Positions 13,646-45,857 of a stretch of 45,857 bases of DNA are shown here, in pieces; the stretch's first letter is position 1; each line of letters opens with the position of its first letter. The translations under genes and the position numbers were made by a program. Origin of the DNA: Deltaproteobacteria bacterium (GTDB lineage Bacteria > Desulfobacterota > Desulfobacteria > Desulfobacterales > Desulfosarcinaceae); the NCBI GenBank assembly GCA_021824175.1, contig JAKALP010000040.1, positions 1 to 45,857 of the forward strand. Direction: 5' to 3'. The notes beneath the pieces were generated by a model. It ran no database searches. It was not told the DNA's origin and was given only the letters and a program-made list of their open reading frames with translations.

Positions 13646-13679
13646 TTTATAACCTACTTGCGCCGGGAGGAGATTTCAA

Positions 13680-16183: not shown

Positions 16184-16191
16184 TGGGGAAA

Positions 16192-16439: not shown

Positions 16440-16488
16440 TTAAAGAATACTTTTTCTATAAAAAGCTTCTAACTTGGAAGAGAAGACA

Positions 16489-25661: not shown

Positions 25662-25683
25662 AATGAAATTCCGTCAGATGTAT

Positions 25684-25782: not shown

Positions 25783-25813
25783 TACACCCATCTACAAAAC
25801 TACTATCCATCTC

Positions 25814-27331
25814 CTACGGCAAGAGCGGCCGCTCGAGCATTTTTTCATACAAATCGATATAACTGCGGGCATTCACTGCATGGGTGAAAGTCTCCAAAGC
25901 CTGCCGCATGATACGGGCCACCTGTCGCTCTTTGACTTCCGCCGGCAATGCGTAATACTCCATGGCCTGATCGATGGCCCACATCAAACCATTGGAATCG
26001 TAGATGTCGAAGAGAAAACCACTGCCTGCGTCACGGCTCGGATCCAACGGCAAAACCGTGTCGTATATTCCACCGGTGTTGTGGGCCACGGGCAACGCAC
26101 CGTAGATTTGCGCGATCATCTGGGGCAGGCCGCAGGGTTCGAACAACGAGGGCATCAAGATGAAATCCGATGCGCCATAGGCCAGGTGTTCCAGATGTTC
26201 GCTGAAATCGCACACCGCCACGCGCTCGTGAAACTGGTGGTGATTGACGATGTTACGGAATACATGCTGGTAAGGGCCATCGGCCACGAAGACCACCTGC
26301 AGGTTCTTGCTCCAGTATTTTGAGACGAGGTGATAGAAAATATCGGCCAACAGCTGGCACCCTTTTTGGACCGGGTCCAGGCGTGACGGCCACAGGAACA
26401 TGGGGGCCTTCTCATCTTCAACCAGTCCGAGCAATTTTTGCAGGGCCCGCTTGTTGTGGCGTTTGCTGGCCCGATGTTTGTCCGGCCCATAGGTTTTGGT
26501 GAGCAAGCCGTCCTTGGCGGGATTGAAACCCGGATCGGGCGCGTTGAGCACGCCCGCGGCGCAGCCGGCGTTGACCTTGTTGATCAGTTCCCGGCGCAGA
26601 TGGCCCTCTACAAAATCGTGCCGGCCTTGGACGATCTCATCCAGAAAATGCTGACTGACCGTATTGACGAAGTGTGAGGCGAATACGCCACTGACCAAAA
26701 AGTCCACGGGGATATTGCTCCGGGCCGCCTCGTAACTTTCAGCATAATCGGTGTAGTAAAGATGATCCCAGAAATAGGCCGCGTCGATGCCGCGATCTTC
26801 AATGTGGGCCAGAGTGGTCTTGACGGTATGAATGTTGTGGATCGTAAAGAGGCAGGGCACCCCCATCTCGCGCGCCACCGGAGGGATCAGACCGGTCATC
26901 CAGTCGTTGCAGTGGATCAGATCCGGCCGTACCCGGGGGATGATATTGTTGATCACTTCGCGCTGGAACGCCAGAGCGATGTGGACATTTTCACCGCCAT
27001 AATTGGAGTACACGCGGTTGAGGTAGAAAAAGGCGCGGTCTTCGGCCAGGTGCACGCGGTCGTTGGGCATGACGCGGCGCAGCGTGCGCCGCTCCTTGCG
27101 CAGAAATGGCGCCAATCGATCTTCAAATATGGCGCGGTAGTCGGGCAGGGCCACATGCACGTCAGCGCCTTGCTCAAATAAGGCGCTGACCAACGCGGCC
27201 GACACATCGGCCAGACCGCCGGCCTTGGCAGTCAAAGTATTGGCCAGGCTGCCCATGCGATCGGGAAGATAGGTGACTTCGGGGGTGACGATCAGTACGC
27301 GTGGTTTTTTCTTCCGCTGTTTAAGTGCCAT
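25814..27331 (-). CDS. glgA: Glycogen/starch synthase, GT5 (GlgA-like, copy 1)
   Basis: Transfers glucose from a nucleotide sugar to the growing alpha-1,4-glucan. A 505-residue GT-B enzyme: the N-terminal Rossmann half starts VLIVTPEVTYLP with the donor-loop motif KAGGLADVSAAL (residues about 36-47), HCNDWMTGLIP and FTIHNIHT; the C-terminal half has WPSRLDPVQKG and YGASDFILMPSLFEPCGLPQ, holding the conserved acidic residue, then HNTGGIYDTV. The usual KTGGL is KAGGL here. The donor may be ADP- or UDP-glucose: no glgC lies in the window while galU does. It is placed between the phosphorylase and branching enzyme genes on the same strand. Confidence 0.9.
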   Translation of the reverse strand: MALKQRKKKPRVLIVTPEVTYLPDRMGSLANTLTAKAGGLADVSAALVSALFEQGADVHVALPDYRAIFEDRLAPFLRKERRTLRRVMPNDRVHLAEDRAFFYLNRVYSNYGGENVHIALAFQREVINNIIPRVRPDLIHCNDWMTGLIPPVAREMGVPCLFTIHNIHTVKTTLAHIEDRGIDAAYFWDHLYYTDYAESYEAARSNIPVDFLVSGVFASHFVNTVSQHFLDEIVQGRHDFVEGHLRRELINKVNAGCAAGVLNAPDPGFNPAKDGLLTKTYGPDKHRASKRHNKRALQKLLGLVEDEKAPMFLWPSRLDPVQKGCQLLADIFYHLVSKYWSKNLQVVFVADGPYQHVFRNIVNHHQFHERVAVCDFSEHLEHLAYGASDFILMPSLFEPCGLPQMIAQIYGALPVAHNTGGIYDTVLPLDPSRDAGSGFLFDIYDSNGLMWAIDQAMEYYALPAEVKERQVARIMRQALETFTHAVNARSYIDLYEKMLERPLLP

Positions 27332-27399
27332 TCGATATTCTACCTTCCTACTTGAACCTTTTACTTTCTACCATTTCCCTTTTACTTTGCTCCACCCAT

Positions 27400-29949: not shown

Positions 29950-30125
29950 AAAGCTGCTCCTGTCGGATTGATCAGCGTGGTTTCAGCGAATCAACAAGGG
30001 CCTAGGTTAATCACGGAAGAGAAATAGTCCACGTCTTGTGCGTCAATGCAACGCACTGCGCTCAATGGCAACGAGGAGCACAAGGTCTTTTCAACGCAAA
30101 CCTGGGGCGCTGTGGGGTATTTTAC

Positions 30126-30270
30126 AAGCCATCTCAAAAAAGCCTTTTGTCCTCCCGCCGAACTAAGGCGGGATTGGAGGCAAAATTTAAATCCTCGAAA
30201 TACTCCAGTATGTCTGCGGTTTAAATTTTGCCTCCGCCGCGATCTTGGGCCAAAAATCATTTTTTAGATG
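30126..30270. repeat. Dispersed palindromic repeat (TCCTCGAAATACT family), copy at 30.1 kb
   Basis: ACAAGCCATCT at the left end pairs with AGATGGCTTGT at the right end. Inside, GGAGGCAAAATTTAAATCC pairs with GGTTTAAATTTTGCCTCC around TCGAAATACTCCAGTA. The inner block is nearly the same as in 23481-23617; the outer ends match the short copy at 1937-1982. It lies between the small CBM48 gene and glgP. The remainder of 29950-30293 shows no gene. Confidence 0.75.
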
Positions 30271-30293
30271 GCTTGTCACGATGGAGTAAAGAA

Positions 30294-30602
30294 TCAAACC
30301 ACCACCACTGAGTTTTGGGCATTGTCCACGCCGGTTTCGACAAATTTGTCGGCCGCTTCGTCGGTGATCCAATGCTTGCCGTCCACCACATAGCGGTATT
30401 GGTATTCGCGCCCTTTATCCAGGGTGATGGTCGCGGTGAAATCGCCGTTTTTGAGGGCCTTCATGGGGGTTTTGTCCGCCCTCCAGTTATTGAATTCGCC
30501 AGCTACGGCCACTTTATTGGCCTGCCCAACACTTTTCTTTTCTAATCGGAAAGTCACTTTGCATACGGGTTGATCCTTGAGGTACTGTTTTTTAAGACTC
30601 AT
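30294..30602 (-). CDS. Small stand-alone CBM48 (isoamylase N-terminal-like) protein
   Basis: A 102-residue protein consisting of little more than one CBM48/early-set carbohydrate-binding domain: CKVTFRLEKK, VAVAGEFNNWRADKTPMKALKNGDFTATITLDKGREYQYRYVVDGKHWITDEAADKFV as successive strands (GEFNNW and YQYRYVVDG are the signature). Two ATGs are adjacent (30605, 30602), with GGAGGA just before them. Free-standing domains of this kind occur beside glycogen genes and resemble the AMPK beta-type glycogen-binding module; it probably binds glycogen and may tether enzymes. No catalytic part is present. The long gap to the debranching gene upstream suggests its own promoter. Confidence 0.88.
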   Translation of the reverse strand: MSLKKQYLKDQPVCKVTFRLEKKSVGQANKVAVAGEFNNWRADKTPMKALKNGDFTATITLDKGREYQYRYVVDGKHWITDEAADKFVETGVDNAQNSVVVV

Positions 30603-30887
30603 CATTGTCCTCCCGGCTCTAAGCGGTTCATAACGGATGAGTAAAACCAAGACATTCGTCCCCAAATAATTGATGGGGATTATTTCGGTGCATATTTACC
30701 GGCCATCCCTGCGGATTCGAGATCAAGATGAGAAGTGCGGTTTGCGGTTCCAGAAGGATGCTTTCTGAGTATAGGTGGATGGCACTGGCATAAGGCGACA
30801 AACTAAAACATTCTTCAATGCCGTCAATAGGTTCATAATTATGGCCGGCCGGGGGGTTTTGTCAATATCTCTTAAGTTTGCGGGGAG

Positions 30888-31057
30888 TCACGGCTGTTGC
30901 TTGCAGCTTAGAAACGAGGCCGATATTTTCGTACGCGTACTCAGCGAAGCGGTACTCGTACGCGTACTCGAAGGGCTTTTATCTATCATTTCGAGTACGA
31001 GTACGCGTACGAGTGCGATTTGGACAAACATCGACGTGCAATAGTCGCGACTTGCAC
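30888..31057. repeat. GTAC-rich hairpin element, copy C
   Basis: The left end TCACGGCTGTTGCTTGC (30888-30904) is nearly identical to that of copy A. The left arm GCGGTACTCGTACGCGTACTC (about 30951-30969) pairs with GAGTACGAGTACGCGTACGAG ending at about 31014; the right end is GTCGCGACTTGC (about 31044-31055). It fills most of the gap between the debranching gene stop and the small CBM48 gene. No gene is seen in 30603-31069. Confidence 0.65.
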
Positions 31058-31069
31058 ACTACTTTTGCT

Positions 31070-34000
31070 TTATATCAACTTCTTCCACACCCGAAGCAAT
31101 TCGCTCACACCCCACGCCTGGGCATCACAACCCCGCTGGCGGTGCGGGGCGTCGCCATCTACGATCTCCGGCACCTGTCCGACGCACAAGCTGTTGATCC
31201 ATCCAATACTGCTGGAAAGCCAGGCCAGGGCGGTCTCTTTACTATCGGGTCCGTAGCACATGGCCCAGGCTTCGCAAAAGGATGGAAAGGGCCAGGTCCA
31301 GGCCGTGCCATTATGGTAGGCGGGTTTGCGCCGGGTGTCTTCATCGCCCTGATAGTGGCCCCAATAGGGGTGCAGCGGGTCGTTGAGCAGTTGGCCCTCC
31401 CGGCGCACCTCCAGCGGCATCGTGACCGGCTGGTCGGCCAGCGAGCGGATGGCGCCGGGCACCAGCAATGTCAGACAGGCTCGCAAGATGGAACGAATCA
31501 TGGCCGGGTCATCCACGGCGCCCAGGGTGATGGCCAGGAGCTGATTGGGACGCAGGGCATCGTCGGCCAGGGCCTGGGTGGCGCCTTGGCCCGGCTGGGC
31601 ATGGCGGCAATCGCTTAGATAGCCGCTCTCGGGCAGCCAGAAGAGCGCGCGAATACTCTCCTTAACCATTTTGGCCATTTTGCCCCACGGCCCCTTTTTA
31701 GAGGCGTCTATGTGCGAAAGAAAATTCAAGGCCGCATACCACAGGGCCTGGATCTCGATGGGATAGCCCTGGCGCGGCGTGCCGGCCGGGAAATTGGTAT
31801 CCATCCAGGTGAAATGGGAGGGGCTGTAGAGCAGGCCCGAGGCCGGGTCCATGACAATGCCGTTGGGCGTGCCGGCCATGATCGCCGTGGCCATATCCAT
31901 GAGAATCCGCCGGATGGTGCGGCCATTGCACTCCTGCTCCAGAAAATCCTCCTGTCCGGCCACGGCATGCAGATCCGCGCAGGCCGTGAAAAACCACAAG
32001 GGCGCGTCCGAGGTGTCGCGGTTGCTGGCGTCATTGCCCCGGATCATATTGGGCAGCGTGCCGTGCTGCTCGAATTGGGCGAACTGCATCAGGATCGCCC
32101 GGCTGGTTTCCAAGCGTCCGGCGGCGATCAGGCCACGCACCACGATCAAAGTGTCGCGGCCCCAATCCAGGAACCAGGGAAAACCGGCGAGCACGGTGTG
32201 AAAAGTTCCCCGGCGAACTACGTATTGATCCAAAGCGGCCGTCATGGCCGTTTCCAGGGGCAGATCCTCGTGAAACGGTGGCTGCGATAACGGAGTTTTT
32301 AGCTTGGGCGTTTCGGTGTCGGCTCCCGCCGCCTGGGCGGTAAACACCACCCGGTCACCACCCAGCAGCTTGCAGGAGAAATAGCCCGGCCCGAAAAGAT
32401 CGGAATCGGGGTCCAGGCCGCGCTCGGCTTCCAGAGGCCGATAGACCATGTAGTACCACTCCGGCGCCACATGGAACTGGCCGCGATCGGCTTGCATCAC
32501 CAGACCGTAACCGGGCGTGGGGGCGAACCGGAAACCGGTCTTAAAAGCTTTGACCGCCGCCGGCCACTGATGTTCCGGCCCGGTGAAGGCCTTGGTGCAG
32601 TGGTGAAAGTTGCGGTCTTCCACATCCGGCCGCACGATGAGGGTCACGGCCTTTGGGTCGTCGAGTTCGGCCTGGCCCGAGAGCCGCAAGAGGCGCTCAA
32701 AATCAAGAATGAAGGTGTTGGGCCGCTCCGAGTCCATGCGGGCGTTGACCTGCAGCACGACGTGCTCACCCTGGCCGGTGTGGATCTGGTAGCGCCACAT
32801 GGCGCCGCCGGTATAATCAAAAGCAAACTGCTCCAGGCAGTCCAGTTTGATCTCCTGGGAGTAACCCTGGTAGACCACCCAGGCCCGGCAACGGGCCAGC
32901 AGCACCCGCCGGTCTTCGGGGAAATCGGGGTTCAAGTTGGCGGCCAGCCAGGCGTCGTAGCGGCTCTGCAGGCCCCAATCGGCATGCACCCGCATCATGG
33001 CCCCGCGGCCGTTGGTGCCCAGCACCAGCAGCGGCATGGCGTGGCAGTCGTTGCGTGAGAAAGTGGTGCGCACGCGTGCCAGGCGGCCATGGGCCAGGTA
33101 AAGTAGCTGGCTTTTAAAATGACGTGCTCCTTGGGGGTCGAACAACGAGATTTCTATCTGCAGCATTTGATGGGCCTTGGGCGTGAGCCATGGGGTGAAC
33201 AAGATGAAATGACCGCCCTGGACATCGCCAAGACTCTGTTCGGTTGCCAGAATTCGATCTTCACTCACAATGCGCGCCCGGAAGGCGTGCGGCGCGCGCA
33301 CCAATAGCAGATGGCCGGGGGGCACCATGACCTGCCGCCGCAGATCGGCGGGAAAGTGCCAGGGGATTACCCAGCAGGCATTGCCGCTGGGATGACATTG
33401 ACGGCAGAGGTCTTCGGGATCTCTTTGCAGCAACGCCACGGCAGGTTCCATGTCCGGCACCAGGCCGGGCTGCAGCGCATTGGCCACTTCCAGAACCTTG
33501 GCGCGCAGCCGCTGCCGGATGGCGGCCGGAGGCGCGGCGCCGGCATGGTGATGGTCCGTGGCTAACCATGGATCAAGGGCGTCGGCCAGGCACACCACCT
33601 GCCCTGGCGCCAGATCCAGCCGGCCGATTCTTTTGCCTAGATGAGCGGCCGCGTTTTGGCCGGTCAGCAGGTCCACCACGCCGTTTTTTAAAAATGGACT
33701 CTGCTTGGCATCCCAGCTTGCGGTCACCGGCTTGCCCGCATCCAGATTGGCGATCACCACCAGGCCGTGGCCCGAGGGCCGGTGCAGCCGCGCCAGGGTC
33801 GCAAAATTGCCGTCTCCCTGGCTGATCAAACTCAGGATGACCTCCGCGCCAAAGGCGGGATGGGTTTTGAGCAGCAGGCTCAGGCGGGCGATGGCCTCCA
33901 CCTGATTTTCAGCCGCGCCCCAGTTGAGGGCGCAGGCTTCGTGCACATTGATTTTTTCAGTGGCCAGCCATTCCGCACCGTTGGCGAAACCGAAAGCCCC

Positions 34001-35344
34001 ATGGGGCGCAAAGAGCGCGCACAGGGCCATGCGCATGCGGGCATAGGTGGAAGACGTGGCGGCCAGACGGTTGTTGTCGTGGGTTTCGGCAAAATGGATG
34101 TTGATGCCGTCGGTGGCGCTCATTTCGTTGGCGCCGGGCAGATACCATTCGATCTGGCCGCGGTCATAGTTCTGGAACAGCTCCGAATAGGCCCAGTTGA
34201 AATTGGCCTTGTTGAGCAGATCGCGGGTCACCGAAATCTTGCCGCCCAATCCTTCTAGCAGAAAAAGGGTGTCGGGGAACTGCTCGCGCACCTTGGCAAT
34301 GATGTAAGTCCAGGCCGGCGATGGGATCATGTAGCCGGCATCGCAGCGGAAACCGTTCACGCCCCGGCGGCACCAGGTCAAAAACACATCGGCCATGTAG
34401 GTCCACATGTCCTTGTGGCCATAATCCAGGCGGGTCAGATCAGCCCACACCACGCCCCAGGCGCCGGGGTTTTCAATCTCGCCGTTCTCCTTGCGGGCCA
34501 GCCACTGGGGGTGGGTTTCGTGCAGGCTGGCGGCCCAGCCGGTGTGGTTGATGGCGATGTCGATGATCATCTTGCCGCCCCGGGCATGCACTGCGTCCAC
34601 CAGCTCGATGAACTGCTCCAGGGGTGTGGCCTTGGGGTCAAAGACCGCCAGGGCCGGGTCCACGGCCGTAAAACTCAGGGCTGCGTACGGACTGCCGTAG
34701 CGGCCCATGCGGGCAAAGGTGGTGGGCGTGGGGTGAATGGGCAGCAACTGCAGCAGGCGGCAGCCCAGCCGGCCCATGATAAAATCCAGCTCGGCGATTA
34801 AGTCCCGGAAGGTGCCCGAAGGCGGAATGACCGTGAATCCAGCCTGGTCCAGCGTTTTGACGCACTCGGCCGCGGCCGCGGTGTCGCTGCGGGGGCAATT
34901 CTTGTGTGGACCGAACTGGCGCACGAAGGCATTGTAGGTGATGTTGCCGCACACCGTGTCGGCCGGTTCCACATTGATGGCGCTGTTGGGGCCTTCGGGC
35001 CATAAGGGTTCATTCTGGCCCTCGGGCAAAAACAGGCACTTGGCCTCGAAGTGGCCCACTTCGGTCAGAGCGATGACCGTTTCGAACTCACCCGGCGCCA
35101 CGGGATGCATGGGCACATCGTACCAATCCCGGGCCAGAGGCGCCTCGTTCAACTCCACCCAGCGGATGATTTCGCGCCGCACCGAGCGCGCATGCCCCAG
35201 GTTGGTGCGCACGAAAGCCGCGCCGGACAAGCCAGGATCGACATGCAGGCGGAACAGGACCAGATCGCCTTTAAAATGCAACAAATGCTGACCTGGCGGC
35301 GGTTCTTGAATCACGTGGCTTTTGCGAGCGATCTTAGCGGACAT
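31070..35344 (-). CDS. Large bifunctional-type glycogen debranching enzyme (GH13 + GH133)
   Basis: About 1424 residues from ATG 35344 (AGAGGAG 7 bases upstream; the extension to 35410 lacks one). The N-terminal half has a beta-rich domain (about 1-130) and a GH13 barrel (about 130-480) with IDIAINHTGW, Asp335 in GFRCDAGYMIPS, Glu364 in FLLEGLGG, and ETHDNNRLA (His422-Asp423), so the 4-alpha-glucanotransferase residues appear intact. The C-terminal half (about 1010-1424) is a GH133 amylo-alpha-1,6-glucosidase (FPWFLDWGRDTLIVVRGLI, GYPIEIQALWYAAL, NGTAWTWPFPSFCEAW). This two-activity layout is that of eukaryotic debranching enzymes and is less usual in bacteria than GlgX. It degrades phosphorylase limit dextrin, fitting the adjacent glgP. 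Confidence 0.9.
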   Translation of the reverse strand: MSAKIARKSHVIQEPPPGQHLLHFKGDLVLFRLHVDPGLSGAAFVRTNLGHARSVRREIIRWVELNEAPLARDWYDVPMHPVAPGEFETVIALTEVGHFEAKCLFLPEGQNEPLWPEGPNSAINVEPADTVCGNITYNAFVRQFGPHKNCPRSDTAAAAECVKTLDQAGFTVIPPSGTFRDLIAELDFIMGRLGCRLLQLLPIHPTPTTFARMGRYGSPYAALSFTAVDPALAVFDPKATPLEQFIELVDAVHARGGKMIIDIAINHTGWAASLHETHPQWLARKENGEIENPGAWGVVWADLTRLDYGHKDMWTYMADVFLTWCRRGVNGFRCDAGYMIPSPAWTYIIAKVREQFPDTLFLLEGLGGKISVTRDLLNKANFNWAYSELFQNYDRGQIEWYLPGANEMSATDGINIHFAETHDNNRLAATSSTYARMRMALCALFAPHGAFGFANGAEWLATEKINVHEACALNWGAAENQVEAIARLSLLLKTHPAFGAEVILSLISQGDGNFATLARLHRPSGHGLVVIANLDAGKPVTASWDAKQSPFLKNGVVDLLTGQNAAAHLGKRIGRLDLAPGQVVCLADALDPWLATDHHHAGAAPPAAIRQRLRAKVLEVANALQPGLVPDMEPAVALLQRDPEDLCRQCHPSGNACWVIPWHFPADLRRQVMVPPGHLLLVRAPHAFRARIVSEDRILATEQSLGDVQGGHFILFTPWLTPKAHQMLQIEISLFDPQGARHFKSQLLYLAHGRLARVRTTFSRNDCHAMPLLVLGTNGRGAMMRVHADWGLQSRYDAWLAANLNPDFPEDRRVLLARCRAWVVYQGYSQEIKLDCLEQFAFDYTGGAMWRYQIHTGQGEHVVLQVNARMDSERPNTFILDFERLLRLSGQAELDDPKAVTLIVRPDVEDRNFHHCTKAFTGPEHQWPAAVKAFKTGFRFAPTPGYGLVMQADRGQFHVAPEWYYMVYRPLEAERGLDPDSDLFGPGYFSCKLLGGDRVVFTAQAAGADTETPKLKTPLSQPPFHEDLPLETAMTAALDQYVVRRGTFHTVLAGFPWFLDWGRDTLIVVRGLIAAGRLETSRAILMQFAQFEQHGTLPNMIRGNDASNRDTSDAPLWFFTACADLHAVAGQEDFLEQECNGRTIRRILMDMATAIMAGTPNGIVMDPASGLLYSPSHFTWMDTNFPAGTPRQGYPIEIQALWYAALNFLSHIDASKKGPWGKMAKMVKESIRALFWLPESGYLSDCRHAQPGQGATQALADDALRPNQLLAITLGAVDDPAMIRSILRACLTLLVPGAIRSLADQPVTMPLEVRREGQLLNDPLHPYWGHYQGDEDTRRKPAYHNGTAWTWPFPSFCEAWAMCYGPDSKETALAWLSSSIGWINSLCVGQVPEIVDGDAPHRQRGCDAQAWGVSELLRVWKKLI

Positions 35345-35579
35345 TAAAGCTCCTCTTTGTTGCATCCATAAAGTGTGAGTTAGGATCGCTGGTCGCTGTG
35401 TGCGCGGCATCGGTATTTGAATCGGAACGCCATGATCCCGATACCGATGCTGCTACCGAATTTTACCACGGATATACGCGATGGGTCATTGTACGCTTCA
35501 TGCTCCCTTGAAAGACAAAGGGCCAAAGAAGCGATCCAACGCCCATTTGGCCCATTGCATACAATAGCTGCAACTTTTC

Positions 35580-36464
35580 CTAATTCTCAATGGCACACAC
35601 CTTCAACATCTGCCGCAGGAAAGGCATCAGCCGCTCGCGCATGTCGGGCCGGTCAAAGGCATACGAGAGGTTGGCCATCTGGAACCCCACCTTGGTGCCG
35701 CAATCAAAGCGCTGTCCTTCGTAGCGATAGCCGTAAATTGATTGCTGGGCCAGCAAGCGGGCCATGGCATCCGTAATTTGAATTTCGCCCCCAGCGCCGG
35801 TTTCCTTGAGCTCCAGAATCGAAAAAATTTCGGGTGTCAGAATATAACGGCCGATGATGGCCAGATTGGAAGGGGCTTTCTCGGGCTTGGGCTTTTCCAC
35901 TAAGCCTCGAACTTTGGTCAAACGATCCTTGGGCGGATCAGCATCCAGAATACCATAGCTGGCCGTGGCCATGGGGTCCACCTCTTCCACGCACACAATG
36001 GAGGACTGTAGTTTGTCAAACTGCTCGATCATCTGGCCCAAGACCGGCTTCTTTGACTTCATCAAGTCATCAGCCAGCAGCACGGCAAAGGGTTCATTGC
36101 CCACAATGTGGCGCGCGCACCAGATGGCGTGGCCCAGTCCCAGGGGTTCGTTTTGACGCGTGTAAATAAAAGTGCCGGATTCAGGCACCAGCAGCGCAAT
36201 CCCCTTGAGCAAGGCCTCCTTGCTCCGAGCAATCAGAGTCTGCTCCAGCTCGCAGAAATGGTCGAAATGATCTTCGATGGCCTGCTTGCTGCTCCCGGTG
36301 ACGAAGACGATCTCCTTGATTCCAGCATATAAAGCCTCTTCCACGGCGTATTGGATCAACGGCTTGTCCACCACCGGCAACATCTCCTTGGGCACGGCCT
36401 TGGTGGCCGGTAAAAAACGGGTCCCCAACCCCGCCACCGGGAAAACAGCTTTGCTGACTTTCAT
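35580..36464 (-). CDS. galU: UTP-glucose-1-phosphate uridylyltransferase (GalU, copy 1)
   Basis: Makes UDP-glucose from UTP and glucose-1-phosphate. The 294-residue protein has the nucleotide-binding signature GLGTRFLPATKAVPKEMLPVVDKPLIQY (discontinuous quote; residues about 12-39) and further GalU motifs FVTGSSKQAIEDHFD, QNEPLGLGHAIWCAR, VLLADDL and VEKP. Complete length. AAGGAG lies 7 bases before ATG 36464. It is on the same strand as the glycogen genes, 235 bases upstream of the debranching gene. In the absence of glgC it is the likely sugar-nucleotide supplier for GlgA. Bases 35345-35579 hold nothing recognisable. Confidence 0.93.
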   Translation of the reverse strand: MKVSKAVFPVAGLGTRFLPATKAVPKEMLPVVDKPLIQYAVEEALYAGIKEIVFVTGSSKQAIEDHFDHFCELEQTLIARSKEALLKGIALLVPESGTFIYTRQNEPLGLGHAIWCARHIVGNEPFAVLLADDLMKSKKPVLGQMIEQFDKLQSSIVCVEEVDPMATASYGILDADPPKDRLTKVRGLVEKPKPEKAPSNLAIIGRYILTPEIFSILELKETGAGGEIQITDAMARLLAQQSIYGYRYEGQRFDCGTKVGFQMANLSYAFDRPDMRERLMPFLRQMLKVCAIEN

Positions 36465-37654: not shown

Positions 37655-38290
37655 TGTAATTAAGGAAAGTTCCCACTAGTGCCTAATAAAAAAAGTTTCA
37701 AAACCATAGCACTGACCAATGTCATGATGCAAGCCTGAGCTTAGTCATCTCTGATACAAAATTGTGAACCATTACCCCAATCAAGACTACACGTTCAGAT
37801 TGCATTGCATCTAATGCCAAACTCACATTGCATAGTATTCCGATAAGAATGCAATTGCGATGAGAGCCAACAATTAAATGCTATTCTACAAAATTTTCGT
37901 CTTAATGCTTCGCAAGTATAGGCAGAGAAATGGCATCGACCTGGCAATATTCTCAAAAAACAAGCCGACTTTCCCGGAAACAAAAGGCTTCCGACCCGTT
38001 AATCGACCCAGTCAGCAATGGTAAAAAGCAAGCCCCTGGGGGACAGAAGATGTCAATTCAATTTGCCCATAAATGATTAGGCCTGTCTGTTAATTTGGTT
38101 GCAATTGTCTCACAATTTGCTATGAATAACAGTATGATTAGTGGTTTGGCTCATTGAATTTATAACCGATATGCCCGTTTAAATAGACGATGCAATTGTT
38201 ATTGGTCTCTAATGTTACGCATTGATACTTTGCATGACAGCTGAAAAGATACCAACAACTTAACTACACTAATTACAACAGGTGCGCACC
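37655..38290. other. AT-rich non-coding interval at a composition boundary
   Basis: Over 600 bases with no supported gene. Compared with the left side it is visibly AT-rich and contains repeated short words around ATTGCAT/GCAATTG (for example 37801, 37829, 37848, 38098, 38190). It separates the GC-rich backbone from the second GalU and the minus-strand accessory operon. I found no tRNA, integrase or clear direct repeat marking an insertion site. It must contain promoters for both flanking genes, but no clear -35/-10 pair could be selected. Confidence 0.5.
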
Positions 38291-39163
38291 ATGCCAAAAA
38301 TCACAAAAGCAGTAGTCGCGGTTGCCGGAACCGGAACCAGATTTCTTCCCGCAACAAAATCAATGCCCAAAGAGATGTTACCGATTGTTGACAAACCAAT
38401 TATTCATTTAGTCGCTGAGGAATTGGTTGAGGCTGGAATTACAGATATAATCTTAGTGACCAATTCTGATAAAAAATCCCTGGAAGATCATTTTGATCAC
38501 AACCGATTGCTTGAGCATTCATTAGAAAAAACCGGCAAAATTAAATATCGCGACGAGATATCAAAAATTGCGGAGATGTGTAACTATATATTTATTAGAC
38601 AGAAAGGGCCCTATGGCAATGGAACCCCCGTCCTCTCTGCAGCCAATATCGTCGGCAATGATCCCTTTATCTATGTGTGGGGCGATGATTTGGTGAAATC
38701 AAAAGTGTCGTTCACTAAACAGATGATCAATGATTATACAAAAAGCGGACATCTGATGATTGGTGTTCAAGAGGTACCTTTAGAAGAAGTTAACAAATAT
38801 GGCATAGTCGAGTTGAAGCATGGCACAATGGAAATTATAGACATTATTGAGAAACCTCCCATTCATGAGGCCCCATCGAGGTTGGCGGATTTTGGGCGCA
38901 TGATCCTAAATAAAGAGATCGTTGATATCTTAAAAGAAACCCCTCTAGGAAAAAGCGATGAGCTTTGGATTGTCGATGCTATTCGTACATACGTGAAAAG
39001 GGGAGGGGTCTTCCTCGCGAAACAAGTCGAAGACGGTGAGTGGCTTACAACTGGTGACCCTTTAAATTATCTTAAAGCCGTTATTAAATATGCTCTTGAA
39101 CGTGAAGACATCGCTAAAGAATTGAGACAATTTATTGAATCAGTCAATTTGTGTAATATATAA
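38291..39163 (+). CDS. UTP-glucose-1-phosphate uridylyltransferase (GalU paralogue, copy 2)
   Basis: A 290-residue second nucleotidyltransferase of the GalU family. ATG 38291 is used; GTG 38282 is the in-frame alternative and the ribosome site is weak (ACAGG). The signature GTGTRFLPATKSMPKEMLP near residue 13 and IVDKPI follow the GalU pattern, along with ILVTNSDKKSLEDHFD, QKGPYGNGTPVLSA, YVWGDDLV, IIEKPP and GDPLNYLKAVIKYAL. It differs strongly from copy 1 and has AT-rich codon use, so it is not a recent duplicate; horizontal gain is likely. The gene faces the radical SAM operon tail to tail and may supply UDP-glucose to the second GlgA-like enzyme; that link is inference. Confidence 0.88.
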   Translation: MPKITKAVVAVAGTGTRFLPATKSMPKEMLPIVDKPIIHLVAEELVEAGITDIILVTNSDKKSLEDHFDHNRLLEHSLEKTGKIKYRDEISKIAEMCNYIFIRQKGPYGNGTPVLSAANIVGNDPFIYVWGDDLVKSKVSFTKQMINDYTKSGHLMIGVQEVPLEEVNKYGIVELKHGTMEIIDIIEKPPIHEAPSRLADFGRMILNKEIVDILKETPLGKSDELWIVDAIRTYVKRGGVFLAKQVEDGEWLTTGDPLNYLKAVIKYALEREDIAKELRQFIESVNLCNI

Positions 39164-39410: not shown

Positions 39411-40931
39411 TCAAAGGCAAAACGATTCAACGTTAGCTCTATCAAGTCTTGCCGCACAAGTTTCCTTTGGCATTTCCCTGATGTCCCATAGCAAATCGGA
39501 ATCTTTCCATATGCTTTTCAGTCCTGCTTCATGTGTCAAAATGCCCGCAGGGCTGGCGCTAAAAGGGCATGCCTTAACTGTGCCGTTTGGAGATATAACA
39601 GCACTTGATCTGCCGCAGGTACACCTCCTGCCGAGGATGACTGCCTCAAATCTTGGAATCTCCCGCGAGAGGCGGTCGATCCATTCATTGCATTTTTCTG
39701 AAAGAATATCCTCCTGCTGGAGGCTTAATTCTCCTAGATTTCCTGAAGTACTCCGATAGAACTTAGAGAAATAGACCTTATGGATGCCATGGGTCAACAC
39801 GAAGTCTTCCAAGCCCTTTGTAACGATATCAAAATTGTCATTACGAATTGTTACAGATATCCCTATGATCGGAATAGCTTCTTTTTTTAAGAGTCTTATC
39901 GCCTGAATACTCTTATCAAACGTTTCTTTCCCACGGAAGCGATCATTATTTTTGGCGTCGAATCCGTCGAAACTAATCTCTATCTTATTTATACGGGATC
40001 GAGAGAGAAGAGCAGCGTTCTTGTTGTCCACCAGAGTGCCGTTGGTAATAAGCTTGACGTAAATATCCGCGTCACGAAGCATCGTTATTGCCTCTACCAC
40101 CTGAGGTAGGTCTAAAAGAACCTCCCCCCCAAGCAATGTGACGTAGCTTATACCAGATTCAACGACCTGTCTTAGGATGCGTTGCTTGAATTCAGGCCAT
40201 ATGAGGGGCTTTATCGAAGGAAAAGCATTACAATAACAGTCGCTGCAACGGAGATTGCATTGGTAGGTCATTTCGATAGCAGTGTAAAGGGGGAGTTCCG
40301 TGTAAGAAAATTGATCTTGGATAGTGGTTATGTTGGCGTCCCACCTGTTAGATAAAACCGCATCAAAAGTAGTGAGTTTGGGCCTGCCGCCCCAGTAGAT
40401 AAATCCGCCATCTTCAAGGTGATCAAGAAAAGCCAGAAAGATATAAGGGTCAATTTCATGACCATATTCATGGATAATCTGGTCGTAAATTTCTTTTGTC
40501 GTCTTAGCCCCATCGATCAGTTCGAACACTCTGGCGTAAGGCCGGATAAGGGCTAACATAGGATTATCCTTCATTTTACCCGATGGATCGAGCTGATTCA
40601 GGCTGGTTGTGTTATGAAGTAAAGTGATGTCGCCAAAGATCGGAATCCTCTTAACCCCGGATAATTTTTTAGGAGTCGTGTTATGGTGGGCTTGTGGAAG
40701 CGGCAGCGCAGCGATGGGGTTCGGGCAATAGAAATGCCTGATATTGAATTTGCTCCCCTGTTCAAAAGCTGGGAATGGCTCCCTGCTCAGATAAGCAGCT
40801 ATCCCGGGGCCTTTCACCTCAAAGACCTTACTTGTTCTATTAAAGACCTCGACTCGGGTCATATCTCTGTTCGCAGGTGCAGAGTAAAAGGCTGGATTCT
40901 TCTGTAGCTTTTTCTGTTGGCCTGATGACAT
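39411..40931 (-). CDS. Radical SAM protein with PqqD-like and SPASM-like regions
   Basis: A 506-residue protein of unknown substrate, from ATG 40931 (GGAG 6 bases upstream; TTG 40943 is rejected). Residues about 1-110 are unfamiliar. About 113-181 (LALIRPYARVFELIDGAKTT, then IIHEYGHEIDPYIFLAFLDHLEDGGFI) resembles PqqD, the peptide-recognition fold of RiPP maturases. The radical SAM core follows with CNLRCSDC (Cys225, 229, 232) binding the 4Fe-4S cluster, then LLGGEVLL and ITNGTLV. The C-terminal part has CTCG, then CPF (Cys437, 439, 455), ETC (491) and FCL at the end (505), like a SPASM/auxiliary-cluster domain but short of its usual final Cys set. It is last in a minus-strand operon, 53 bases after the 2H-like gene. 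It could modify a peptide or a sugar; no precursor peptide was found. Confidence 0.82.
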   Translation of the reverse strand: MSSGQQKKLQKNPAFYSAPANRDMTRVEVFNRTSKVFEVKGPGIAAYLSREPFPAFEQGSKFNIRHFYCPNPIAALPLPQAHHNTTPKKLSGVKRIPIFGDITLLHNTTSLNQLDPSGKMKDNPMLALIRPYARVFELIDGAKTTKEIYDQIIHEYGHEIDPYIFLAFLDHLEDGGFIYWGGRPKLTTFDAVLSNRWDANITTIQDQFSYTELPLYTAIEMTYQCNLRCSDCYCNAFPSIKPLIWPEFKQRILRQVVESGISYVTLLGGEVLLDLPQVVEAITMLRDADIYVKLITNGTLVDNKNAALLSRSRINKIEISFDGFDAKNNDRFRGKETFDKSIQAIRLLKKEAIPIIGISVTIRNDNFDIVTKGLEDFVLTHGIHKVYFSKFYRSTSGNLGELSLQQEDILSEKCNEWIDRLSREIPRFEAVILGRRCTCGRSSAVISPNGTVKACPFSASPAGILTHEAGLKSIWKDSDLLWDIREMPKETCAARLDRANVESFCL

Positions 40932-40984
40932 CGCATTCTCCAAAATTAAATCTTAAGACGATGGTTCCATAGGTCTTCAATCAA

Positions 40985-41716
40985 TCAGGCATTGTCTAAA
41001 GGAATGTTACCGAGCGGAGTGAATACTTCAGAGAATGCTATTGAAAAATTCAAGGATTCGCCTAGATGATAGATGAAATCCAACAGTGTTGAAAGTTGCC
41101 GATCATCCAATAGATTGATCAGATGCCCGAGTTTGATATGGGCCGTTTGGGGAGCCTTTTCCTTGAATTTCTCCACTTGGTCTTCCAAGCATTGTCTTAC
41201 ATGAAAAAGACACTCTCCTTTGGGATATCCTGGGACCAGGAGGGTACCAGTCGGAGCCAATATCATCCCATTATAATCAATGATTATGGGCCCGCGTTGA
41301 TAAGGAAGCAGCACCCTTTCGGCCGTTTGAAATTCGACCGGGGAAAGATACTCAATGCAGTCTGAGTTTTCGTAATGAGTCCGGTTTACAATCGTAGTAT
41401 GGTATCCTGATTTGGGAACAAACGCCAGTCCGCCCTTGTCTCTTCCCTTGCCAATGATTTTTTGAATATGAGAGCGCACTGCAATGGCCGTTTCCCACAG
41501 CATTTCTTCAACCCCTCGCTGGGGAAGAGGACATCCGAGGGCCAGCCCTGTAGGGTAGCAAGCACACTTTTTAAGGTAGATCGTTCCCTTATCTTCTATC
41601 TGGCTCAGATCTGCTGATGATCTACCTACCGCCTTCTCATCCAGCCCGCAATTCAAAATCTTTGTTTTGATTTCTTCATAATTATCCCGGCAAGCGGATA
41701 TTGAGTGATGGCTCAT
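40985..41716 (-). CDS. Small 2H-phosphoesterase-like (LigT-fold) protein, second motif degenerate
   Basis: A 243-residue protein. ATG 41716 overlaps the upstream gene's stop by ATGA; the in-frame start at 41746 lacks a ribosome site, while AAGGAG lies 11 bases before 41716. Two spaced His motifs with beta-strand surroundings suggest the 2H fold: GYHTTIV (His106, matching HxTh) and TAHIKLGHL (His193), where the usual Thr/Ser is replaced by Lys. LAPTGTLLVPGYPKGECLFHVRQCLEDQVEKF is the pattern of strand, turn and helix common before the second motif in LigT-like proteins. 2H enzymes act on 2',3'- or 2',5'-phosphodiester bonds. With one altered motif the protein may be a binding or altered-specificity version. 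The N-terminal third, with several Cys (ILNCG, KKCACYP), is unfamiliar. Confidence 0.55.
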   Translation of the reverse strand: MSHHSISACRDNYEEIKTKILNCGLDEKAVGRSSADLSQIEDKGTIYLKKCACYPTGLALGCPLPQRGVEEMLWETAIAVRSHIQKIIGKGRDKGGLAFVPKSGYHTTIVNRTHYENSDCIEYLSPVEFQTAERVLLPYQRGPIIIDYNGMILAPTGTLLVPGYPKGECLFHVRQCLEDQVEKFKEKAPQTAHIKLGHLINLLDDRQLSTLLDFIYHLGESLNFSIAFSEVFTPLGNIPLDNA

Positions 41717-44031
41717 TGGAGCGAGATCTCCTTTTCTATCTCCCATGAAGCGCTTAGATTTTGTCTCGTCATGATTGCGATCTTGCTAACACAAACGGAC
41801 TTGCTATGCCATCCTTTGATGAATTGTTCCTGCAGGTCCTTGCTTATTTGAATCATCTTATCTTCGGGCACCTCAGTTAGGAGGGTAAAGTGGGGGGCGA
41901 ACTTGGATAGAATATAAGGGGCCCGATAGCGATTCATTACCAGTAGGTTCCTAGGATCACTATCATCGTTTTTATCTCGTTTCATTTCCGCGCGGCTGAA
42001 GGTGTAATCCGAACCGACAGCCCTCCGGTATACCCTTTGAACCATTTCGTGATGAATGGCTTCCAAATTTCCAGTGCGGTCTACTGGGACAATGGAAATA
42101 CTGGATTTGTCTGGAAACTGCGATCTGACTTCCATGTTTTCGATCTCGAATTGTTTGAAATCCTTCAGCACGAATTCGATTTCTTTACAGGCACGTTCAC
42201 ATTCAGAGGCAGTCTGGAAGTAGAGCACATCGCAAATGGTTAGATGGAAACCAAACCATCGAGCGCCGCCAACAAGAGATTGCCAAACGGATTCTTTATT
42301 CACTTTTTTTCGCACATCATAGCCTAATATTTCTGATCCGAATTGATAGAAACCTGTATTTTCTTGAGGAATAAAATACAAAGCAATGGCTGGCATCCCC
42401 TCTATATTGACTGTTTTCTTGTCATGAAGGTCCATCGTGTCTTTGAGGTTCTGGGCAGATTTTCGTACCATGTCATATTGTGCATCCAGAAATCGAATCA
42501 TACTTTCATTGGCCGGCTCGGTCTTAGTAAATTGAATGACAGGGCTGAAATTTCCAAGTTTGGCATACCCATAAGGATAGACAAAATAATTATCATCGAC
42601 GATGATAAGGGCGAATGTGGGATAATGATTAAATAGACGCAGGCTGATCTTATCTGGGCTGCTCACCTTCTCCCATAGATCTAAAAATGTTCTTAAGCGG
42701 CTTAAAAGACCTAATTTACCAACAGGAGGGCGGTAGCTTCCCAATTCTTCCTCTATGAGTCGCCCCTCAATATCCGGGCTGAAAGGATTCGCCAAAAAGA
42801 TTTCCAAACTTTTATTTTCACGATTATCTCGAACGTTCTTCATGATCTCGCGAGCAAAGGCATCATTTTGTAATACGTTGAGCCCTGTGCCGATGAGCAC
42901 AATTCGTCGACCCATTCGCATTTTTTTCTTGATGAGGTCGTGAAATTCATCACATTGGCTTTCCTTGTAAATCTTGATGCCGAAGGTTAATTCTGGCCCA
43001 GAACATGTGGTTGATGTAATGCTAGCTGAACCTAGTGGGCGCCAAGGTTGATATCCTGGCATAATAAAAGTCATTACGCCATCTTTCCCCAGTTTGCAGT
43101 GGGCGTGCCATTTGTTTTTTTCAGAGTCCCATTTGCGGTAGTCAACTCGAACCTCGGAGTTGATCCAATCCAGAGTGATGTAATGAAACTGGGTGCCCGG
43201 TGCTGCTACATCTTGATAAGTTGCGCCTGCTTGTAAACTCAAATAGTCAATATCCTCATCTTTTTTCCCGTAAGTCCGAGTCTTGTGTGTGTGGCCGCTT
43301 AGCAAAACTGAATGATGAAAGAAGCGACGACACCGCTTAACGTCTTTGGTCCATAGCCAATCCATTGGATGATGAAACATAAATAATGTAAGATCAGATG
43401 GCTTATTGCTTCTTTTCTCTTTTGCTGCAATCGAAACCTGGTGTTCACCAATGGCAAGTTCAAATTTTTTTTCGTCTTTTCTATCTTGTTCTGACTTTTT
43501 TCGATATAGCCAGGCCGAATTCAGCCCCAAGATATCAAGTTGTTTTCCACATTTAGTTTGGTAGCGGCATACAAATGGCACTAGTCTCTGTTCTAAATCT
43601 TTGAGGTGCGCGCAATATTCGTTGGCAAAATCAAAATAGGCTTTCTGCCCTTTCATAAGTTCTTCTCTATATTCCCTTCGTTCAAGTTCTCTATTGAGCT
43701 TTTCCACGGTATCGTACGTAGGGGCGTCGGAGTCTCTGTACGCATCTAAATCCACATCATGATTCCCTGGCACAATGAAAAGGCTGCGACGTTCGCAACC
43801 TACCGCAGATAGAAGATCATTCAGAAATGGTTTCACATGCTGGTTATACTCCTCTTCCTTCCCGCTAAAAGCCAGGTCACCTGTAATAGCAATAATTTCG
43901 GGTGAAAATCCCCTAACCCTATCTTCCTTGACTCTATCCAGCAGACTTTCAAGCTTCGAGCTCTGATCTTGCTTAGTTTTTGACGATAGATGAAGATCCG
44001 AAATATGGAGAATCTGAGTTTTCTGGCTCAT
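41713..44031 (-). CDS. Calcineurin-like phosphoesterase / PLD-like / 2H-phosphoesterase fusion
   Basis: A 772-residue protein with three parts. (1) Residues 1-300: calcineurin-like metallophosphoesterase with all metal motifs, DLH (Asp12, His14), GD (51-52), GNHD (89-92), FHHP (220-221) and GHTH (246-249). (2) About 345-530: RIVLIGTGLN, FAREIMKNV, LEIFLANPFSPD, ISLRLFNHYPTFALIIVDD, YPYGYAKLGNFSP; this resembles PLD-superfamily/DUF5919-like regions, but I see no HKD catalytic motif. (3) About 545-770: a 2H-phosphoesterase domain like DUF1045, beginning MPAIALYFIPQENTGFY, with FHLTI (His596) and PHFTLL (His714), both HxTh motifs intact. The gene starts 30 bases after the second GlgA and overlaps the next gene by four bases. 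It probably cleaves one or more phosphodiester/phosphomonoester bonds; the substrate is unknown. Confidence 0.8.
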   Translation of the reverse strand: MSQKTQILHISDLHLSSKTKQDQSSKLESLLDRVKEDRVRGFSPEIIAITGDLAFSGKEEEYNQHVKPFLNDLLSAVGCERRSLFIVPGNHDVDLDAYRDSDAPTYDTVEKLNRELERREYREELMKGQKAYFDFANEYCAHLKDLEQRLVPFVCRYQTKCGKQLDILGLNSAWLYRKKSEQDRKDEKKFELAIGEHQVSIAAKEKRSNKPSDLTLFMFHHPMDWLWTKDVKRCRRFFHHSVLLSGHTHKTRTYGKKDEDIDYLSLQAGATYQDVAAPGTQFHYITLDWINSEVRVDYRKWDSEKNKWHAHCKLGKDGVMTFIMPGYQPWRPLGSASITSTTCSGPELTFGIKIYKESQCDEFHDLIKKKMRMGRRIVLIGTGLNVLQNDAFAREIMKNVRDNRENKSLEIFLANPFSPDIEGRLIEEELGSYRPPVGKLGLLSRLRTFLDLWEKVSSPDKISLRLFNHYPTFALIIVDDNYFVYPYGYAKLGNFSPVIQFTKTEPANESMIRFLDAQYDMVRKSAQNLKDTMDLHDKKTVNIEGMPAIALYFIPQENTGFYQFGSEILGYDVRKKVNKESVWQSLVGGARWFGFHLTICDVLYFQTASECERACKEIEFVLKDFKQFEIENMEVRSQFPDKSSISIVPVDRTGNLEAIHHEMVQRVYRRAVGSDYTFSRAEMKRDKNDDSDPRNLLVMNRYRAPYILSKFAPHFTLLTEVPEDKMIQISKDLQEQFIKGWHSKSVCVSKIAIMTRQNLSASWEIEKEISLQ

Positions 44032-44061
44032 ATTCGTTATGTCAGCCTCCTTTTTTATGCC

Positions 44062-45522
44062 CTACAATTCATAAGTGCATCCCGTTAAGCTTGCATCCTT
44101 CTCAAGGACTTGTTGATAGAGTGACAGGTAACGTCTTCCCAGGCTAAATTTCAATTGCCTTTCAAGGGCTTGATCCATAATTCTCTGAATTTGTAGTCGT
44201 TTAACTTCATCTGAGATACAATAAAAAGCCAAAGCCGATTCAACAGCACTTAAAAAATCGCTCCGAGAAAAAACCTTAAATGGGAATCCGCAACCACTAT
44301 TTTTTAATGTTAACAAAGGATCAATGGTATCATGAAGTCCGCCAGTGTCGTGTGCTATGGGAATAGATCCATAGATTGGACCAATAAGCTGTGGATATCC
44401 GCAAGGTTCGTATTTAGAAGGCATTAGGATAAAATCTGAGGCTCCATAGGATAAGCGAGATAGATCTTCGTCAAAATCAAGGACGGCCAAGCAGTTTTGA
44501 AGCCCTAAAGCCATTTTTTTAAGATGCCCTTGGGCATCCCCATCAGCTATCACCACAATCTCAGGCCGCTTTCCACGAAAATTTTTTGTCAGCTCCGGTA
44601 GAATGTCTATAAAAAGATCGCATCCTTTTTGTTGAGAATCCAGACGGGAAGGCCAATAAAAGAGAGGTGCTTCGGCATCTGGTTTCAAGCCGAGGGCCTT
44701 CTGAAGGAAGAGCTTATTCTCCTTCTTCCCCATAGGATGCGTGGATGAATCATAGTTACAGACCAGTGATGGATCATGGGCAGGATTGAATGAAAAATCT
44801 GGTGTGTTTAGAATAGCTGAGAGCTGACCGACTTCTTCCTTTATTTTTAGACATTCCAGGACTTCTTGGCTGACTAAGTGCTTATATGACATCAGTTCTT
44901 TAAGGAAAGTGGGACTTACGGTGTTGACATGAGTGGCTGACAAAATAGCCAAGGCAAGCAAATTCCTGAGCTTCCCAGAGATATGTCCATGTTTTATGGT
45001 GGCGTGTTGGTTTAAAATGAAATTGTTCCATCCTAACGCTAAAGAAACGTGTTCCGGGACCTTCATGGAGTGAACGCTATGCATTGTAAAGAGGGTAGGT
45101 ATGTTTTGGCGCATGGCTTCGGCAACGATCAGGCCTGTCATGTAATCATTGCAGTGAACGATATCAGGCTTGATTCGAGGCAAAACATCCTGAATGACTT
45201 CTTTTTGGAATTGAAAAATGCTCTCAGAACTACGAGTGTAACATGTTTTTGTAATCCATTCTTTCCCGCCTTTCGCGCCTTTTGTGAAATGGATGTGGTT
45301 GGTAGAGCGAATAGGCGGCGGAGAGCCGGGGCCTGGCCAAGGCATTACAAGGTGAAGGTCTATGCCGACACGCCACAGGTCGCCAATGAGAGCCGCCGAG
45401 AATTCCGCCAACCCTCCTGTTTTGATCTGGGCATACACAGCATGTGGCCCCATATTCTCGGGAACGCGGGCGACTTCTGGTGAAACAAACAAAACTCTAG
45501 AGGAATTATTAATAGCGACCAT
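44062..45522 (-). CDS. GlgA-like GT5 glycosyltransferase (copy 2)
   Basis: About 486 residues from ATG 45522 (GTG 45531 is the alternative; AAGG sits between the two spacings). A GT-B starch-synthase-type enzyme: VLFVSPEVARVPENMG, donor motif KTGGLAEFSAAL (about 34-45), HCNDYMTGLIV, FTMHSVHSMKV, then NTVSPTFL, FYWPSRLDSQQKGCDLF, YGASDFILMPSKYEPCGYPQ and AHDTGGLHDTI. It is homologous to GlgA copy 1 along its whole length but divergent and AT-rich. GCGG-type neighbours such as branching or debranching genes are absent beside it; instead it leads an operon with phosphoesterase and radical SAM genes. It may make a distinct glucan or glucosylate another acceptor; that is inference. Confidence 0.88.
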   Translation of the reverse strand: MVAINNSSRVLFVSPEVARVPENMGPHAVYAQIKTGGLAEFSAALIGDLWRVGIDLHLVMPWPGPGSPPPIRSTNHIHFTKGAKGGKEWITKTCYTRSSESIFQFQKEVIQDVLPRIKPDIVHCNDYMTGLIVAEAMRQNIPTLFTMHSVHSMKVPEHVSLALGWNNFILNQHATIKHGHISGKLRNLLALAILSATHVNTVSPTFLKELMSYKHLVSQEVLECLKIKEEVGQLSAILNTPDFSFNPAHDPSLVCNYDSSTHPMGKKENKLFLQKALGLKPDAEAPLFYWPSRLDSQQKGCDLFIDILPELTKNFRGKRPEIVVIADGDAQGHLKKMALGLQNCLAVLDFDEDLSRLSYGASDFILMPSKYEPCGYPQLIGPIYGSIPIAHDTGGLHDTIDPLLTLKNSGCGFPFKVFSRSDFLSAVESALAFYCISDEVKRLQIQRIMDQALERQLKFSLGRRYLSLYQQVLEKDASLTGCTYEL

Positions 45523-45649: not shown

Positions 45650-45857
45650 CACAAAAGTTGAATCCTTATATAGAAAATCATTAAAATCTAGTAACCGTTC
45701 ACAGGGATAGAAGATAAAATCATACTATCCAAGCCAAATTTGGCTTTTGATCTTTGAAATAAGCCTTCACCAAATCGGCAAGAACAAGAAAAGAAGATGA
45801 AGATTTAGATTTCATACGGCACGTTTCTTTTAATGACAGGATACGTTCCACCCAACG

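Follow-up and report, generated by a model that had tools for sequence, protein, structure and literature searches.

A rare four-gene operon joining a metallophosphoesterase-2H fusion, a glycogen-synthase-like glucosyltransferase and a radical SAM protein: a possible conflict cassette in a Desulfosarcinaceae contig

What might a glycogen-synthase-like enzyme do in an operon which it shares with phosphoesterases and a radical SAM protein? The question is raised by contig JAKALP010000040.1 of a Desulfosarcinaceae genome (assembly GCA_021824175.1). The window, that is, the whole stretch of DNA analysed here, is this one entire contig of 45,857 bases, from a genome of 6.07 Mb with a completeness of 99.5% and an estimated contamination of 3.4%. 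Its minus strand carries four intact genes in a row, encoding a GT5 glucosyltransferase, a fusion of a metallophosphoesterase (MPE) with a 2H phosphodiesterase-type domain, a 2H-like protein and a radical SAM protein. Our answer is a tentative one: the set may be a horizontally acquired, rare conflict (defence-like) cassette, in which nucleotide or RNA phosphodiesters would be hydrolysed and an acceptor other than a glucan would be glucosylated. We favour this reading because the MPE falls in a conflict-effector family, because of the substrates on which 2H enzymes act and because glycosyltransferases and a radical SAM enzyme occur as effectors elsewhere; its best-supported part, judging from sequence, is the family membership of the MPE. 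The four products and the domains of the fusion are as follows (aa, amino acids).

44062..45522, minus strand: GT5 (glycogen-synthase-like) glucosyltransferase, 486 aa; PF08323 73.3 bits, TIGR02095 230.5 bits
41713..44031, minus strand: 772-aa fusion of a calcineurin-like MPE, a middle domain and a DUF1045-type 2H phosphodiesterase; Metallophos 53.9 bits plus DUF1045/2H
43042..44031, minus strand: MPE domain of the fusion, aa 1-330, assigned to the DS-8/GASH effector family; NF053861 133.3 bits
42397..43020, minus strand: middle domain of the fusion, about aa 338-545; one weak relative, a 331-aa protein
41716..42387, minus strand: predicted 2H phosphodiesterase domain of the fusion, aa 549-772; PF06299 over cut-off, TIGR03223 61 bits
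40985..41716, minus strand: 243-aa 2H-like protein; HTT and an altered HIK motif, start overlapping the preceding stop by 4 bases
39411..40931, minus strand: radical SAM protein, 506 aa, with an N-terminal extension, a PqqD-like stretch, a CxxxCxxC core and an incomplete SPASM-like end; Radical_SAM PF04055 78.1 bits

Operon layout and the metallophosphoesterase-2H fusion

The initial annotation had placed the four genes on one strand with gaps of 30 bases, a 4-base overlap (ATGA) and 53 bases, and this spacing holds when the starts are taken at 41716 and 40931. The better start at 41716 shortens the 2H-like frame (41746-40985) from 253 to 243 aa, and that at 40931 shortens the radical SAM frame (40943-39411) from 510 to 506 aa. 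Start 41716 is preceded by a Shine-Dalgarno-like AAGGAG and start 40931 by GGAG; the GT5 start has no clear sequence of this kind. As the window is a whole contig, the sequence upstream of 45857 is out of view. Most of the domain calls first made for these genes were recovered over cut-off, namely GT5, the Metallophos plus 2H fusion and Radical_SAM, but PqqD and the second 2H-like protein had no family match over cut-off.

By its sequence, the MPE domain of the fusion belongs to the DS-8/GASH conflict-effector family. All of its metal-site motifs are present (HISDLHL, TGDLA, PGNHD, FHHP and GHTH), and they are invariant across a five-protein alignment. The DS-8 model NF053861 matches the fusion at residues 9-305 only, with 133.3 bits (E 6.9e-39) against a whole-protein cut-off of 790 bits, far under which two MPE-NACHT proteins of the order also score (123 and 144); further defence models matching the domain are DS-9A (70 bits) and PADLOC PDC-S60 (90 bits). 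Among 145 other near-host genomes, the closest MPE relatives share 43% identity; the one forms the N-terminal domain of an MPE-NACHT-FGE protein, the other is truncated by a contig end. In all 18 genomes with a match the alignment stays within residues 1-350 of the fusion. A 22-row tree groups the fusion MPE with these two relatives and another MPE-NACHT-FGE protein (L015, L016 and L017) at moderate support (88/70). Furthermore, 29 plasmid records contain a match to the domain, and in eight of ten hand-picked records that were opened the homologue is the leading gene of a GASH GTPase operon; the remaining two hold one long single protein (a 3198-base gene) and a different context.

The two known systems which come closest differ from the fusion in instructive ways. 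DS-8 combines a metallophosphatase with NACHT in one protein, phage defence is lost when either domain is mutated, and the substrate of the metallophosphatase domains of DS-8 and DS-9 is unknown, according to PMC13092281. The fusion is like DS-8 in its N-terminal MPE of this family, catalytic motifs included, but it has no NACHT in a Pfam scan, carries the middle and 2H domains instead, scores far below 790 bits and has three operon partners. In GAP1-N1/GASH GTPase systems the commonest effectors are calcineurin-like domains, as stated in PMC7159879. These systems use the same effector domain family, whose gene heads the eight plasmid operons mentioned above, whereas our four-gene operon is without a GASH, GAP1 or GTPase gene, the region upstream of 45857 being unseen.

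A defence or signalling module turning over a nucleotide signal had been one option in the initial annotation, and it gains support because the calcineurin-like domain falls in the DS-8/GASH family. The core of the cassette would then be a double phosphodiesterase, made up of a DS-8/GASH-type MPE effector and a 2H domain, with the middle domain and the DUF1045-type 2H phosphodiesterase taking the place of NACHT or another known sensor. A DS-8-family domain fused to a second phosphodiesterase and accompanied by a nucleotide-sugar enzyme may offer a direct handle on the question of what DS-8 and DS-9 act upon.

Other MPE loci came to light in the same searches. Two MPE-NACHT-FGE proteins of the host's order, of 1076 and 1121 aa (L030:7674-10904 and L031:3269-6634), combine a DS-8-like effector with an NTPase and a C-terminal FGE (sulfatase-modifying-factor-like) domain. 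At L032:971-6464 an MPE protein that matches EAD7 weakly (26.2 bits against a cut-off of 32) is followed by genes of MoxR-type ATPase and vWA type, as read by eye, and the locus resembles a ternary conflict system of the kind described in PMC7159879. In Aliivibrio salmonicida plasmid pVSAL840 (L139), an IS30 transposase splits a GASH operon, with the MPE on one side and the GTPase genes on the other.

The C-terminal domain of the fusion scores 32.4 bits against DUF1045/2H (PF06299, cut-off 24.3) and has both HxT motifs (HLT at aa 596-598, HFT at aa 714-716). In these respects it is like the DUF1045/TIGR03223 2H proteins of phosphonate operons; unlike them, it is fused to an MPE, reaches 61 of the 248.95 bits set for TIGR03223 and lies in an operon without a phosphonate gene. 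Known substrates of 2H enzymes include cyclic phosphates, 2'-5' oligoadenylate and cyclic oligonucleotides (PMC9503650 and, for Acb1, PMC10419184). The two domains with intact motifs would hydrolyse nucleotide phosphodiesters, either in a cyclic (oligo)nucleotide signal or at RNA ends bearing 2',3'-cyclic phosphates.

The latter substrate would also suit a cassette for RNA repair or RNA-end processing, which clears 2',3'-cyclic phosphates and in which the other genes are passengers. Phage RNA-repair neighbourhoods do contain 2H and calcineurin-like enzymes (PMC9503650), but our operon has no RNA ligase, kinase, KptA or sirtuin domain and the GT5 and radical SAM proteins would be left unexplained, so that we regard this explanation as very unlikely.

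The 243-aa protein, whose gene is translationally coupled to that of the fusion, was read as 2H-like by eye from its motifs. The first of these is a canonical HTT (aa 116-118 of the 253-aa frame), and the second, 87 residues on, is altered to HIK (aa 203-205) where HxT/S is expected. No family in Pfam, NCBIfam, PADLOC or PHROGs exceeded its cut-off, the best being Peptidase_M43 (E 0.064), and BLASTP against the 2H domain of the fusion gave E 0.12 over 27 residues. Single-sequence AlphaFold2 modelling of the 253-aa frame reached a mean predicted local distance difference test (pLDDT) score of 32.9. In the proposed cassette, this protein would probably bind or process the same class of substrate as the fusion.

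The middle domain of the fusion has one weak relative, a 331-aa protein in another genome of the phylum (E 5.7e-5, 29% identity; 26% in a second alignment). The predicted structure of the C-terminal half of the fusion has a mean pLDDT of 33.2. An assignment of the middle domain to DUF5919 was dropped, the 331-aa relative scoring 13.4 bits (cut-off 23.5) and an hhalign comparison of the middle domain and this relative with a DUF5919 protein giving a probability of 5.5% (E 0.007). The relative itself (L033:4937-5932) has two N-terminal membrane helices by eye and is a candidate membrane effector.

The GT5 glucosyltransferase and the resident glycogen cluster

The initial annotation had implied that the GT5 gene lies away from the glycogen genes with which such enzymes normally sit. 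A check of the neighbourhood contradicts this, as a glycogen cluster lies 3-16 kb from the operon on the same contig and strand, albeit in the resident, high-GC part. The cluster and the second GalU gene, which lies tail to tail with the operon, are laid out as follows.

23637..36464, minus strand: resident glycogen cluster, outside the operon; GlgA and GalU by model, the rest read from sequence
23637-25661, minus strand: GlgB, name read from sequence
25814-27331, minus strand: resident GlgA, model match
27400-29949, minus strand: GlgP, name read from sequence
30294-30665, minus strand: CBM48 protein, name read from sequence
31070-35410, minus strand: debranching enzyme, fused, name read from sequence
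35580-36464, minus strand: resident GalU, model match
38282..39163, plus strand: second GalU, UTP--glucose-1-phosphate uridylyltransferase-like, 293 aa; TIGR01099 278.6 bits

The cassette GT5 shares 38% identity with the resident GlgA, and both fall under the TIGR02095 cut-off (230.5 and 267.5 of 328.45 bits). We placed it in a tree of 49 proteins, comprising the cassette GT5 (P0004), the resident GlgA, 43 of the best 80 loci in the genome collection and four plasmid GlgA proteins as an outgroup. It joins the clade of the resident GlgA, mostly of Desulfobacterales, against the outgroup at 100/100. Its branch, with 5.47 changes per column (median 0.35), is long enough that its placement may be wrong, and the bootstrap had not converged. 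In the 44 other members of the clade, 137 columns are conserved at 97% or more, and the cassette GT5 retains 97 of these; each of the 44, scored against the columns conserved in the remainder, retains no less than 95.7%. The losses are unevenly distributed: when the protein is split at residue 245, the N-terminal acceptor half keeps 48 of 81 conserved columns, with 33 lost, and the C-terminal donor half keeps 49 of 56 (Fisher p = 0.0005). The catalytic positions KTGGL, H148, R293/K299 and E372 are retained. We take the roles of these K, H, R/K and E positions to be those of E. coli GlgA.

Because the catalytic positions and the donor half are kept and the acceptor half is eroded, we read the cassette GT5 as a probably active glucosyltransferase with a changed acceptor. 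It resembles the GlgA of Desulfobacterales-type glycogen clusters in overall identity (38-43%), in its catalytic positions and in its donor domain, and differs from it in its long branch, its altered acceptor domain and its non-glycogen operon partners. Across 194 other near-host genomes, no GT5 exceeds 43% identity over the full length, and matches at 44-46% span residues from about 100 onward only.

The second GalU is 38% identical to the resident one. In the genome as a whole there are only two full matches to GalU and only two GT5 matches of GlgA grade, all four of them on this contig. No match to GlgC reaches the cut-off in the genome (best 69 of 424.9 bits), and UDP-glucose is therefore the likely donor for both GT5 enzymes. 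In the conflict cassette that we propose, the second GalU would supply UDP-glucose, with which the GT5 would glucosylate an acceptor other than glycogen.

These same observations might instead point to a module of the adjacent glycogen cluster that tailors a glucan or glycoconjugate, in which the second GalU works with the GT5 to produce a variant glucan or glucosylated carrier and the phosphoesterases strip or rearrange phosphodiester decorations. The gathering of both enzyme pairs on one contig, the likely use of UDP-glucose by both GT5 enzymes and the conserved donor domain would all fit. On the other hand, the MPE is of a conflict-effector family, the GT5 acceptor domain has lost those 33 of 81 conserved columns, and phosphoesterase, 2H-like and radical SAM genes are missing from other GT5 loci. 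This is so at all 14 of the near relatives (14 of the top 15 outside the host), seven of which adjoin GlgB and/or GlgP, the other seven having a CBM48 match, a weak GlgP match or neither. It also holds for the best 80 loci in the genome collection, with the exception of a single MPE fragment at 25%. We consider such a tailoring role unlikely.

Regarding the resident cluster itself, the gene order GlgB-GT5-GlgP was found in six of the 14 related-genome loci, four of these six having a debranching enzyme and two CBM48, although several of the 14 stretches end early. As the cluster has a GalU and the genome no GlgC match over cut-off, resident glycogen is possibly built from UDP-glucose. Two or three GlgA-grade GT5 genes are present in several genomes of the order (G498, G418, G419 and G534), and the GT5 copies at L152, L154 and L155 have no glycogen-gene match within the stretch at hand.

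The radical SAM protein

The last gene of the operon encodes a protein with the core motif CNLRCSDC (aa 229-236 of the 510-aa frame). Its PqqD signal (13.4 of 23.4 bits) and its SPASM signal (19.4 of 21.5) are under cut-off, and it ends sooner at the C-terminus than the PqqD-radical SAM protein with which it was compared. The best-scoring models describe radical SAM enzymes that mature peptides or cofactors, all of them with scores well short of the cut-off, and the solved structure with the best sequence match is SkfB. The protein is thus like PqqD-fused radical SAM/SPASM maturases in its CxxxCxxC core and the PqqD-like stretch before it, with SkfB as nearest solved structure, and unlike them in that both accessory signals are sub-cut-off and no precursor peptide was recognised here. 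Identity with viperin (pVip) was rejected, since the PADLOC score of 45-51 bits reflects the generic core only and mycofactocin, NirJ2 and other models score higher. Within a conflict cassette, the enzyme might modify a peptide or protein partner.

Features of this kind could also belong to a pathway resembling those for ribosomally synthesised and post-translationally modified peptides (RiPPs), in which the radical SAM protein would mature a peptide, the GT5 would glucosylate it and the 2H and MPE proteins would provide immunity or process adducts. The maturase-type models (radical SAM/SPASM) and the PqqD-like stretch before the core speak for this, as does a plasmid relative with a PqqD domain which sits in a YcaO/TfuA cluster. 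Set against these points are the sub-cut-off PqqD and SPASM signals, an operon without a transporter or peptidase and small frames in which no precursor gene was recognised by eye, the upstream sequence being missing. Moreover, we know of no usual place for three phosphoesterase-type domains in such pathways. We hold a RiPP-like pathway to be quite improbable. The plasmid cluster, from Thiodictyon (L117:7911-13988), is RiPP-like and consists of two radical SAM genes (one with PqqD), an amidohydrolase, YcaO and TfuA, beside an IS66 element.

Origin, occurrence and the case for a conflict cassette

The operon stands out from its surroundings by base composition. GC content is 0.54-0.63 over 31-37 kb, falls to 0.40-0.46 from about 37.5 kb and stays low thereafter. 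At third codon positions (GC3) it is 0.42-0.48 in the four operon genes, compared with 0.70-0.77 in six of seven neighbouring resident genes, GlgB to BCAT, and 0.61 in the seventh. The opposite-strand GalU had initially been noted as foreign-looking, an impression borne out by its GC3 of 0.39. The contig terminates in the 3' end of an insertion sequence (IS) gene:

45720..45857, minus strand: IS66-type transposase, 3' end, truncated by the contig end; 49% over 43 aa to an annotated IS66 transposase

Given the foreign composition, the IS remnant and relatives without the segment, the cassette segment looks to have been imported horizontally, and its patchy occurrence and foreign GC are compatible with a mobile cassette. 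Rfam, tRNA, repeat and promoter scans returned nothing informative.

No other genome with the set was found. Searches beyond the phylum were those with GT5 and those of plasmids, phages and viral contigs; the genome-collection scan used GT5 as query and took the best 80 loci, and the own-phylum samples partly overlap. The viral-contig searches covered close relatives only, and the phage searches covered the proteins other than the radical SAM protein. For the 243-aa protein, the 394 other genomes searched in the phylum yielded no relative, and neither did plasmids, phages or viral contigs. Full relatives of the fusion were lacking in the own-phylum samples, plasmids, phages and viral contigs, and for its C-terminal half the counts were 0/394 in the phylum (three partial) and 0/388 in the order (one partial, in the 2H region). 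The radical SAM protein was searched at E 1e-20, scoring the top four candidates in each genome: none of 320 other genomes of the order had a full relative and one had a partial match (residues 217-497); nine genomes of the host's own genus had no match, and plasmids held no full relative. Other cassette genes were absent beside the best 80 GT5 loci, barring the MPE fragment already mentioned, and beside the 14 near ones (E limit 1e-4); another of the 80 adjoins a GalU of 39% identity. Three proteins considered as orthologues of the C-terminal half of the fusion (L004, L005 and L006) turned out to be the middle-domain relative, a histidine kinase and a DUF1045-like frame, respectively.

As far as seen, then, the four-gene set is rare or unique, and its conserved linkage is not supported so far. 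The conserved co-occurrence proposed as a check in the initial annotation failed to appear, the four genes being adjacent in this genome alone among samples which hardly extend beyond the phylum. Occurrence in a single genome, a contig ending at an IS element and the contamination estimate of 3.4% would be expected if unrelated imported genes had come together by chance or through an assembly join, with no common function. Nevertheless, the ATGA translational coupling, the short gaps, the intact frames and the similar base composition of all four genes make this improbable in our view.

In the open-licence literature searched, no described system has this composition, in agreement with what had been supposed at the outset, and no glycogen-synthase-type enzyme turned up in a defence operon. 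The combination is new as far as seen, each domain being of a known kind except the middle domain and the 243-aa protein. A precedent for the accompanying enzymes comes from MoxR-vWA conflict systems, whose effectors include glycosyltransferases and a radical SAM enzyme (PMC7159879). Several points weigh against a conflict cassette. A sensor or NTPase (NACHT, STAND, MoxR or GTPase) is absent among the four proteins, and no defence gene was seen by eye on the rest of the contig, the defence-library scan having covered the five cassette proteins. GT5 and GalU suggest carbohydrate chemistry equally well, the substrates of the cassette are unknown and its upstream end lies past the contig end. Finally, because no second genome with the set was met in the collections searched, it is the operon layout by itself that argues for a joint function.

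Should the defence reading nonetheless be true, the locus would exemplify a defence operon that includes an enzyme of glycogen-synthase type. A more specific version, which we consider doubtful, is a conflict system free of any sensor NTPase, in which the MPE-2H fusion, the radical SAM protein and a re-targeted glycogen synthase would make or erase a glucosylated nucleotide or peptide signal. Storage-glucan chemistry would in that event have been recruited into immunity, through a captured glycogen synthase with its own supply of UDP-glucose.

Elsewhere on the contig, a region read by eye as metal-efflux-like (12432-18936) contains P-type metal ATPase-like genes at 14036-16183 and 16474-18936 and, near them, a gene for a small glycine- and methionine-rich protein (12432-13085).

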